NCBI GenBank assembly: GCA_030654805.1
Contig: JAURWR010000007.1
Location: forward strand, 1-35,319
DNA from: Burkholderiaceae bacterium
GTDB taxonomy: Bacteria > Pseudomonadota > Gammaproteobacteria > Burkholderiales > Burkholderiaceae_C
Length of the DNA stretch: 35,319 nucleotides
Direction: 5' to 3'
Shown here in pieces: positions 10,873 through 12,773 of the stretch. The position numbers and the translations under genes are program-made. Position 1 is the stretch's first letter; each line of letters begins with the position of its first letter. Under the pieces are notes generated by a model that worked only from the letters and a program-made list of their open reading frames with translations, did no database searches and was not told the DNA's origin.

Positions 10873-11580
10873 TCAAACACCGAGGTATTCGTGCAACTGC
10901 CCGATGCGCTGCGGCAGTTCGGCCTGGGTGAACTGCTGGATCACGCGGCCGTGTTCCATCACCAGGAAGCGATCGGCCAGCGGCGCGGCGAAGCGGAAAT
11001 TCTGCTCGACCATCAGCACGGTGTAGCCCTGCTTGCGCAGCGCGAGCACCATCTCGGCGAGCTTCTGCACGATCACCGGCGCCAGGCCTTCGGAAATCTC
11101 GTCGAGCAACAGCAGCCGCGCACCGGTGCGCAGGATGCGCGCGACCGCCAGCATCTGCTGCTCGCCACCCGACAGCCGCGTGCCCTGACTGGCAGCTCGC
11201 TCACGCAGGTTGGGAAACATCGCATAGATCTGTTCGATGCCCATGCCGCCCGGCGCCTGCACCGGCGGCAGCAGCAGGTTCTCCTCGGCCGACAGGCTGG
11301 AGAAGATGCCGCGCTCTTCGGGGCAGTAGCCGATGCCCAGCCGCGCGATGCGGTGCGTCGGCAGGGCCAGCGTCTCCTGGCCTTTGATCTTGATCGAGCC
11401 GCTGCGCCGCCCGATCAATCCCATGATCGCGCGCAGCGTGCTGGTGCGACCCGCGCCATTGCGGCCGAGAAGCGTCACCACCTCGCCTTCGTCGACATGG
11501 AAATCGACGCCGTGCAGCACATGCGACTCGCCGTACCAGCCGTGCAGGTCGCGCACCTCGATGAAACGCTTCGCTGTCAT
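10873..11580 (-). CDS. livF: Liv-type ABC transporter ATPase LivF
   Basis: A 235-aa ATP-binding subunit. The ATG at 11580 (MTAKRFIEVRDLHGWYG) is chosen because GGAG lies eight bases upstream and homologues begin there; the frame extends only 11 codons further. Walker A reads GRNGAGRT (residues 39-46), so the usual invariant Lys is Arg45. The signature motif is LSGGEQQMLAVAR, Walker B is LLLLDEISEGLAP, and the switch His lies in LMVEQNFRFA only as Gln/Asn, as is common in LivF. Arg in the P-loop is unusual for ABC ATPases generally; I believe it recurs in some betaproteobacterial LivF proteins but cannot confirm this here. It works with LivG. Confidence 0.92.
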   Translation of the reverse strand: MTAKRFIEVRDLHGWYGESHVLHGVDFHVDEGEVVTLLGRNGAGRTSTLRAIMGLIGRRSGSIKIKGQETLALPTHRIARLGIGYCPEERGIFSSLSAEENLLLPPVQAPGGMGIEQIYAMFPNLRERAASQGTRLSGGEQQMLAVARILRTGARLLLLDEISEGLAPVIVQKLAEMVLALRKQGYTVLMVEQNFRFAAPLADRFLVMEHGRVIQQFTQAELPQRIGQLHEYLGV

Positions 11581-11646
11581 CTCATTTACTCCACCGCGCG
11601 TGGCGCGACCCACGACCCATGAAACGGGCGTGTGATGTGGGCGCGC

Positions 11647-11740
11647 GTGCCGGGGACGCTGGGTACCTCCCTCCGCGAATGTCCCCCGGCTTCGCCTCCT
11701 CCTTTATTTCGCTGCGTGAGATACCCAGCGTCCCCGGCAC
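11647..11740 (+). repeat. 94-bp hairpin element A
   Basis: Left arm 11647-11669 (GTGCCGGGGACGCTGGGTAC then CTC) is the reverse complement of right arm 11718-11740 at 22 of 23 positions. The 48-bp interior holds a core at about 11674-11716 running GCGAATGTCCCCCGGC...GCCTCC...CTTTATTTCGCTGCG. The same core occurs in reverse orientation in element B. The arms could form a long stem in DNA or RNA. Confidence 0.85.
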
Positions 11741-11784
11741 GGGTGACGGCGTCTTGTATCCGTCGATCAGTCCCGGTGCTGCTG

Positions 11785-11878
11785 GATCACGTCGGCGGTG
11801 TGCGCTGCGCAGCGAAATAAAGTAGGAGGCCGCAGGCCGGGTGACATTCGCTGCGCAGTGCACACCGTCGGCGTGATC
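11785..11878 (-). repeat. 94-bp hairpin element B, inverted relative to A
   Basis: Left arm 11785-11816 and right arm 11847-11878 are complementary at 29 of 32 positions. Read on the minus strand, the core GCGAATGTCACCCGGC...GCCTCCTACTTTATTTCGCTGCG matches element A, and begins at the same distance from the element edge (27 versus 28 bases). Total length equals that of A. The outer arms of A and B differ clearly in sequence, yet each pairs with its own partner. Confidence 0.85.
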
Positions 11879-11962
11879 GCGCTCCGCATCAACCAGCAGG
11901 CAAGGAATTGAAGAGTTCGGTTTCATTTCAGTCGGCGCCGAGCCGCCCCAAGGCGACTGAGC

Positions 11963-12000
11963 GAACCCCGGGGGGCAGAAGCAAAGCGACGTGGGGCTGT
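11963..12000 (-). repeat. Stop-proximal GC-rich repeat, divergent copy 3
   Basis: This sequence (GAACCCCGGGGGGCAGAAGC, then AAAGCGACGTGGGGCTG) is recognisably related to copies 1 and 2 and again ends two bases before a stop codon (livG, 12003). All three copies therefore occupy the same position relative to three different genes of the liv locus. Confidence 0.6.
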
Positions 12001-12002
12001 CA

Positions 12003-12773
12003 TCAGTGCGGCGCTCCGAGTTCGACACTCGCGCTGCCCATGTAGGCCTCGATCACCGCCGGGTTCTTCGACACCTCGGCATACGGCCCTTCGGCCAGCG
12101 TCGCGCCGCGCTGCAGCACGGTGATGGTGTCGGCGATGCTCGCGACCACGCTCATGTTGTGCTCGACCATCAGCACGGTGCGCTGCGCCGCGACCTGCTT
12201 GATCAACTGACGGATGCGGTCCACATCTTCCAGGCCCATGCCCTGCGTCGGCTCGTCGAGCAGCATCAGCTTCGGGTCCATCGCGAGCGTGGTCGCGATC
12301 TCCAGCGCGCGCTTGCGGCCGTAGCTCAACTCCACCGCCGGGATCGCCGCATACGACTCCAGATCGACCTCGCGCAGCAGTTCGATCGCCCGGTCGTTCA
12401 GCCCGTCGAGCGAGCGCTCGGACTTCCAGAAATGGAACGAGGTGCCGAGCCGGCGCTGCAACGCGACGCGCACGTTCTCCAGCACCGTCAGGTGCGGGAA
12501 CACCGCAGAAATTTGAAACGAGCGGATCACGCCGCGCCGCGCGATGCGGGCCGGCGGCTCGTCGGTGATGTCGTGCCCGTCGAACAGGATGCGGCCCGAA
12601 CTCGGCGCGAGGAACTTCGTCAGCAGGTTGAAGCAGGTCGTCTTGCCCGCGCCGTTCGGCCCGATCAGCGCATGGATCGTGCCGCGCCGCACGCGCAGGT
12701 TGACCTGGTTGACGGCGACGAAGCCCTTGAATTCACGGGTCAGGTCGCGGGTTTCGAGGAGGTAGTCGCTCAT
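12003..12773 (-). CDS. livG: Liv-type ABC transporter ATPase LivG
   Basis: A 256-aa ATP-binding subunit and first gene of the liv locus. Walker A is GPNGAGKT (residues 38-45) with the normal Lys. The signature is the LivG-type LSYGRKRALEIA rather than LSGGQ. Walker B is LMLLDEPTQGM, with the switch His in LMVEHNMSVV. The C-terminal tail ISKNPAVIEAYMG-like segment (VSKNPAVIEAYMGSA) is typical of LivG. The reading start MSDYLLETRDLTREFKGFVAV matches family length. It pairs with LivF, whose P-loop Lys is replaced. Confidence 0.94.
   Translation of the reverse strand: MSDYLLETRDLTREFKGFVAVNQVNLRVRRGTIHALIGPNGAGKTTCFNLLTKFLAPSSGRILFDGHDITDEPPARIARRGVIRSFQISAVFPHLTVLENVRVALQRRLGTSFHFWKSERSLDGLNDRAIELLREVDLESYAAIPAVELSYGRKRALEIATTLAMDPKLMLLDEPTQGMGLEDVDRIRQLIKQVAAQRTVLMVEHNMSVVASIADTITVLQRGATLAEGPYAEVSKNPAVIEAYMGSASVELGAPH

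Follow-up and report, generated by a model that had tools for sequence, protein, structure and literature searches.

A dispersed intergenic element of Burkholderiales made of two inverted hairpins and probably moved as a folded single strand

Introduction

Small non-autonomous intergenic repeats, including MITEs and those of the Correia/NEMIS type, can be flanked by target repeats and can supply transcripts with hairpins. REPINs consist of two REPs in inverted orientation, spaced 71 or 110 bp apart, and have been proposed to move by the action of RAYT (PMC3116915). TnpA-REP is reported to act on single-stranded REP and to have no action on its inverted counterpart, and the conserved mismatches are reported to be required in the REPs of E. 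coli (PMC8266576). REP families with GTAG/CGTC tags are described in PMC3733652. In Burkholderiales, including Comamonadaceae, the account given in PMC3110155 presents BRE, the betaproteobacterial repeat element, as a GC-rich, mostly intergenic repeat of ~90 bp that is sometimes tandem; BRE was the only described repeat of this clade in the literature searched.

The locus considered here lies in a 35,319-bp stretch of DNA from a Burkholderiaceae bacterium, the whole of which is referred to below as the window. Its twin hairpins, E1 and E2, probably (at a rough probability of 0.6) make up, as inverted halves, a single mobile element of ~350 bp, which is non-autonomous and would be recognised as a folded single strand. 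The sequences establish the folded structure and its restriction to one strand, the constant inverted arrangement of the two hairpins, their dispersal, empty sites and, in some cases, flanking repeats of 9–10 bp.

The site in the window

In an inverted-repeat scan that covered arms lying 3 to 89 bases apart, E1 and E2 were the sole inverted repeats above the score threshold in the 35.3-kb window. The original prediction of self-complementary hairpins with a shared inverted core was confirmed: the 34-nt arms of E1 are 88 % and the 32-nt arms of E2 91 % complementary, and the core is repeated in inverted orientation in two parts (11694–11716 vs 11808–11830, 23 nt, 96 %; 11675–11690 vs 11836–11851, 16 nt, 94 %). 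The equal length of 94 bp given there holds for E2, whereas E1 measures 96 bp and the gap, by the limits used here, is 43 rather than 44 bp. The predicted position between livF and livG is also correct, as E1 and E2 sit between two branched-chain-type ABC ATPase genes, of which that at 12003–12773 has the ABC_tran and BCA_ABC_TP_C domains of LivG and that at 10873–11580 an ABC_tran domain, its assignment as LivF being by position. A covariance model built from hairpins of relatives (of the 53 rows, 3 come from other places in the source genome) found E1 and E2 at E = 1.2e-17 (82.8 bits) and 9e-16, respectively, and nothing else in the window at E <= 1. The coordinates of all features are collected in Table 1; the direct repeat GCTGTCATC occurs exactly twice in the whole window.

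Table 1. Features of the livF–livG intergenic region (window coordinates)
Feature	Position	Strand	Basis or remark
Direct repeat GCTGTCATC, livF-side copy	11573..11581	.	Covers livF start region; compared with empty sites
Twin-hairpin element, direction livG -> livF (putative outer limits)	11582..11932	-	Seven-copy alignment, empty congener sites
Hairpin E1, B type	11646..11741	Sense strand minus	Inverted-repeat search, covariance model
E1 core, internal loop and GAA tip loop, GCGAAATAAAGGAGGAGG ... CCGGGGGACATTCGC	11675..11716	-	
Linker between E1 and E2	11742..11784	.	
Hairpin E2, A type	11785..11878	Sense strand plus	Inverted-repeat search, covariance model, own-copy alignment
E2 core; loop positions 36 and 53 both T	11808..11851	+	
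Second, unrelated repeat, CCCCACG...CCTTGGGGCGGC (putative limits)	11933..11995	.	Similar stretches beside C115 and C21 copies
Direct repeat GCTGTCATC, livG-side copy	11996..12004	.	Overlaps livG stop codon; compared with empty sites

The second repeat (CCCCACG...CCCCCCGGGG...CCTTGGGGCGGC...ACTGA) is GC-rich and intergenic, and similar stretches lie to the right of the C115 copy of the element and to the left of the C21 copy. It may represent the BRE repeat described in Bordetella.

One element from two inverted halves

Core matches in the source genome occur mostly as pairs, with the left copy on the minus strand and the right copy on the plus strand. Among all fetched loci, 124 of the 128 close core pairs (neighbours less than 260 bp apart) have this same divergent order, the others being two reversed pairs and two direct repeats, and the spacing is 117–121 bp in 76 of the 124. 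Seven source-genome copies, two of them interrupted by contig ends, align over ~345 bp with pairwise identities of 85–96 %, and each contains one A-type and one B-type hairpin; the C124 copy is 345 bp long. Judged by this arrangement, E1 and E2 are two inverted halves of one ~350-bp element and not, as had been supposed, two separate copies of a repeat.

In the 3.87-Mb source genome, the 53-hairpin covariance model detected at least 28 hairpins, distributed over 16 places. The count is a minimum, since 150 out of 2091 first-look candidates were scored; the 29 model matches at E <= 0.01 include one on the opposite strand of E2. The two cores of C127, which lie 1246 bp apart, were suspected of marking a larger, gene-bearing copy; the ORFs between them reach at most 200 aa, and the second core is absent from the model matches. 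Several cores per gap, including direct repeats ~336 bp apart, are seen in L153 (5012–5637), L270 and L271, and a rare pair in convergent order, 190 bp apart, in L249 (1500–1708). In genome G102 (L266–L269), stretches of 390–478 bp around the hairpin recur at 83–89 % identity.

Distribution

A scan of GTDB contigs with the exact core pattern returned at least 119 stretches, the matches listed including Variovorax, Hydrogenophaga, Rhodoferax, Rubrivivax, Ramlibacter and Sulfurisoma. The core was found in 58 of 150 family genomes (up to two mismatches) and in 5 of 369 genomes of a class sample (up to one mismatch), the source genome included; together with the 16 places in the source genome, this bears out the proposal of a dispersed structured repeat family, for which a unique core or unpaired arms in other copies had been named as refutation. 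Copy number is uneven. The source genome has 28 core matches (up to two mismatches), compared with 1 and 6 in the incomplete assemblies of G001 and G007, while two genomes of one genus, G041 and G180, have 0 and 31; the latter contrast makes a good genome pair for seeking the mover.

No phage record searched contained the core, and the plasmid records that did were from Variovorax only; three of these plasmid regions were opened and proved to be without annotated genes. Rfam 15 gave no match to the window at gathering score, and the four microRNA models matched at a lax threshold (E 0.003–0.5, far under their gathering scores) reflect a long hairpin, so that microRNA identity was rejected. A search of open-access literature text for words of the core sequence returned papers that, by title, concern unrelated subjects.

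Fold of the hairpins

The arms of the hairpins follow each other and not a common sequence. In a set of 219 hairpins (second half within 60 bases, at most three changes, copies with long tip inserts dropped), own arms pair at 18.1 of 22 positions, compared with 11.0 for arms taken from different hairpins. Kinship between hairpins was left in such counts, save for a selection of 56 hairpins under 72 % arm identity, of which 53 were aligned, one each from L016, L086 and L165 having been omitted by hand. In these 53 dissimilar hairpins, 95.6 % of stem cells pair, as against 62.5 % when shuffled and 37–41 % when the partner is slid, and 464 cells are doubly changed versus 128 in shuffles, a value reached in 0 of 500 shuffles. 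The arm covariation that had been predicted from two hairpins is thus found across the family.

Two fixed mismatches, separated by one base pair, adjoin the core: A-G in 212 and G-A in 205 of the 219 hairpins. Conservation inside the exact core pattern by which the at least 119 loci were picked, including the G of the A-G mismatch, is inflated, while the stems, the G-A mismatch at position 3, the wobble counts and the tip loops lie outside it. The core reads GCGAAAT with ATTCGC in 129 hairpins and GCGAAGT with ATGAGC in 70; rarer forms mostly fit the pairing too, and two hairpins mix forms. These matched forms indicate an exchange between Watson–Crick and tandem G-A pairing. Mutual information in 290 hairpins (those with more than four changes in all dropped) recovers the same pairs and two more within the purine loop, namely 37/52 (A-G 255, G-A 23, A-A 6, other 6) and 36/53 (G-G 280, A-T 7). 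C(GNA)G triloops cap 163 of the 219 hairpins by one count and 167 by a centred-motif count; loops of this type are unusually stable in DNA. On its own sense strand only, each half folds into a hairpin with a ~21-bp stem whose sequence is almost unconstrained, a purine-rich internal loop that is conserved and has the fixed A-G and G-A mismatches, and a short GC stem that is mostly C(GNA)G-capped.

Other folds of the internal loop were considered. A G-quadruplex is not favoured in view of the exchange of A-G for G-A at 37/52 and of G-G for A-T at 36/53, swaps that are few and come partly from related copies. A K-turn is not favoured either, because Watson–Crick pairs replace the tandem G-A step in 129 of 219 hairpins. 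The intrastrand triplex repeats described in PMC4666352 have a different sequence. Variant cores with compensated pairs (GCGGC/GCCGC, GCGAC/GTCGC and GCGAG/CGAGC) occur in L266–L269 (G102), L274/L276 (G150) and L277 (G142). In L001, L011, L017, L080 and L135, which represent several genera, the tip holds a nested insert with a hairpin of its own, GCCAGGCACAAACAGTCC...GGACTGTTTGTGTCCGGGC or close to it, as if a second module entered the hairpin tip.

Strand bias

Read on the core strand, stem wobble amounts to 416 G-T versus 15 A-C, and the core strand is therefore the folding strand. The ratio is 60:3 in the 38 hairpins that are sense to mRNA and 74:1 in the 37 that are antisense, and a stricter subset of 24 sense and 23 antisense hairpins gives 38:0 and 48:0; centred C(GNA)G tips are present in 31 of 38 and 33 of 37, respectively. 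The wobble bias thus appears to depend on the element itself, independently of host transcription. The retention of a sense-like bias in antisense hairpins, which should have lost it if host mRNA were the functional form, is the main reason for preferring folded DNA over RNA, a choice made on 38 versus 37 hairpins with crude gene calls, and against which it counts that RNA also tolerates G-U pairs.

Empty sites and insertion context

In two congeners, G001 and G007, the window site is empty and livG, 94 % and 92 % identical to that of the window, runs straight into livF. The window insert is 414 bp long, and the GCTGTCATC pair flanking it encloses both the element and the second repeat. At the C115 site, G007, G009, G003 and G014 lack the element. 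At the C124 site the element is present in G009 and absent from G001, G007, G003 and G014, with other sequence in its place in G001, G003 and G014. Among named relatives, L060 is filled and L134 empty, and L136 is filled and L127 empty. On the other hand, some source-genome copies are older: flanks are common to copies in G007 for C65, C21 and C38, to one copy of G001 for C127 (one side only), and to copies in G003 for C108, C53, C76 (one side only) and C97. Shared-flank copies and empty sites together indicate a family that has long been kept and has recently spread in the source genome. A different hairpin-rich insert is found at the livG–livF junction of L181 (1220–1560), from another genus of the family.

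The target duplications that were to be looked for are exact, at 9–10 bp, at some sites and imperfect or absent at others. Exact flanking repeats are CTGAAATGAA at C115 and ATTGACATGA at C21, where they enclose both repeats; those of C124 differ by one base, and none was seen at L060. The junctions often read TGAnATGA on both sides, and the apparent duplication may therefore partly reflect selection for stop and start codons. The outer edges of the seven aligned copies differ and show no clean terminal inverted repeats. A long-range outer stem was rejected, the expected covariation at one position of 38 elements not being found (15 concordant, 10 discordant, 13 unread); 7 of the 10 discordant cases would be G-T.

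The genes on either side of 80 pairs, with directions taken from a crude ORF picker, are codirectional in 38 cases, convergent in 20, divergent in 3 and undetermined in 19. Under strict typing, all 10 codirectional pairs with near gene ends have the A hairpin ahead of the B hairpin along the operon. Looser typing that includes other genera gives 20 for and 7 against, the contrary pairs belonging mostly to genera in which the A/B stem types hardly apply, and the orientation rule is accordingly shown for typed forms only. The element starts at the upstream stop codon in C34, C65 and C115 and ~45 bp past it in C124; in C50 and C21 it is separated from that codon by the second repeat. Several copies end in a GGAG-like stretch before the downstream ATG. 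Other orientations and places have presumably been removed by selection.

Search for a mover

The linked RAYT/TnpA-like gene that had been envisaged was not found. The source genome has no Y1_Tnp (PF01797) match, and the core is present in none of 20 Y1 loci of 3.5–5.5 kb, one per carrier genome, the G141 locus offering less than 0.9 kb on one side. An earlier set of 30 Y1 loci likewise lacked the core (0/30); four of its loci are from known carriers (G015, G019, G043 and G051), and G015 and G019 are common to both sets. Among the 15 genomes with at least 10 core matches, Y1 was matched in 8 and reverse transcriptase in 6, compared with 111 and 63 of all 150 family genomes, so that neither Y1 nor RVT_1 tracks copy number. 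RAYT as linked partner and reverse transcriptase as partner were rejected on these grounds. No autonomous relative sharing these ends came up in the course of other searches.

Arm copying and decay

One inner arm of E2 has been corrected to the perfect complement of its partner arm. It reads GCGCAGCGAATG in the window copy only and GCTCCGC in the six other aligned source-genome copies, and GCGCAGCGAATG exactly complements the inner part of the partner arm, which is identical in all seven. Two separated changes that perfect a palindrome form the footprint that a replication template switch would leave, as reported for RNA genes (PMC8794818). Template switching would thus also maintain arm pairing, E2 being the one clear case, and the suggestion that arms are regenerated by copying is upheld in this instance. 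Because such switching restores pairing, arm covariation alone is no proof of selection. The same event removed the fixed mismatches, so that E2 scores on both strands, and E2 may be inactive as an element end. Decay is also seen elsewhere, as one hairpin has been lost at orthologous sites in L123, L090, L144 and L072. At a Hydrogenophaga site, stems differ between species though the flanks align at 80–95 %; the gene ahead of it is, to judge from its last codons, presumably rpoD.

Discussion

The reading as a non-autonomous mobile element has to be weighed against four others, of which the first to be met is a cis-acting RNA element of 3' or intercistronic regions, active in mRNA stability, attenuation or processing by RNase III, which recombination would have spread and the needs of the transcript preserved. 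The position behind stop codons, the order of A and B along the operon, the very stable folds and the RNA-like non-canonical pairs with G-U wobble all suit it, and the original prediction had named an RNA-processing signal as one of two options. Hairpins antisense to mRNA nevertheless keep the G-T:A-C bias and tip loops of the sense ones, orthologous copies have lost one or other hairpin, no Rfam model matches at gathering score and the tips are mostly C(GNA)G triloops, all of which renders such a signal unlikely. Somewhat less doubtful, but still not expected, is a MITE of a DDE transposon that lost its internal part, with the halves as transposase-binding ends and a target duplication of 9–10 bp. 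The two inverted halves and the exact repeats in the window, C115 and C21 are what it predicts, whereas the outer edges lack a terminal inverted repeat, no autonomous relative has come to light in passing, and transposases that bind duplex leave strand-specific wobble and conserved mismatches unexplained.

A REPIN or BIME proper, moved by RAYT in trans, would share the inverted doublet, the conserved mismatches, the strand-specific fold and spacings similar to the 71 and 110 bp given for REPINs in PMC3116915; it is very improbable given the missing GTAG/CGTC tag and the results on Y1 loci, and it would need a RAYT that PF01797 misses. Slighter still are the chances of functionless quasi-palindromes that have no mover, are dispersed by ordinary recombination and pair only through template switching. 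The restored arm of E2 and the loss of single hairpins agree with this, but the mismatches persist against correction in 205–212 of 219 hairpins, the strand bias is strong, and copy numbers differ between close relatives.

For the preferred mobile element, a putative nuclease or transposase would recognise the folded single strand at each end, where the sense hairpin lies towards the 3' end of its strand, and the recognised unit would be copied into gaps behind stop codons. Insertions into operons would survive if stop and start codons were restored and a ribosome-binding end was brought along, and template switching in replication would add to the upkeep of arm pairing. Of the other option in the original prediction, a mobile element moved through a hairpin intermediate, the mobility is supported by empty sites and copy expansion, and the hairpin intermediate is plausible. 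It is possible, and proposed here only tentatively, that the family represents a previously undescribed class of Burkholderiales mobile elements that move as single-stranded DNA, with ends recognised by three-dimensional fold (the purine internal loop, the fixed A-G/G-A pairs and the GNA triloop) and not by stem sequence, and with a mover other than a Y1 transposase or a reverse transcriptase.

If the element is moved as folded single-stranded DNA without RAYT, a large group of environmental bacteria would contain an as yet undescribed recognition enzyme. In this family, one conserved non-canonical loop is set in dozens of naturally occurring stem variants, which make recognition by fold versus sequence, as well as the repair of hairpins by template switching, directly testable. 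In genome annotation, it constitutes an intergenic feature of Variovorax, Hydrogenophaga and their relatives that may be mistaken for terminators.

Comparison with known systems

The element resembles MITEs and Correia/NEMIS-type repeats in being a small non-autonomous intergenic repeat, but differs from them in the lack of clean terminal inverted repeats, of a found parent transposase and of a stem sequence common to distant copies. With BRE, compared by the description in PMC3110155, it shares a GC-rich, mostly intergenic nature in Burkholderiales, whereas the ~90 bp and occasional tandem arrangement given there for BRE set it apart; BRE is instead a lead for the repeat at 11933–11995. The closest likeness is to REPIN/BIME, in that an inverted pair of extragenic hairpins at short distance occurs in many copies and, by the sequence evidence here, has a strand-specific fold with conserved stem mismatches. 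Unlike REPIN/BIME, the element has no GTAG/CGTC foot, the foot columns being variable in the 53-row alignment, and no linked RAYT; its stems are longer and near-free in sequence, with the loop region conserved instead, and its copies number tens, not hundreds. It may thus be described as a REPIN/BIME-like element that, by the tests made, stands outside that family.
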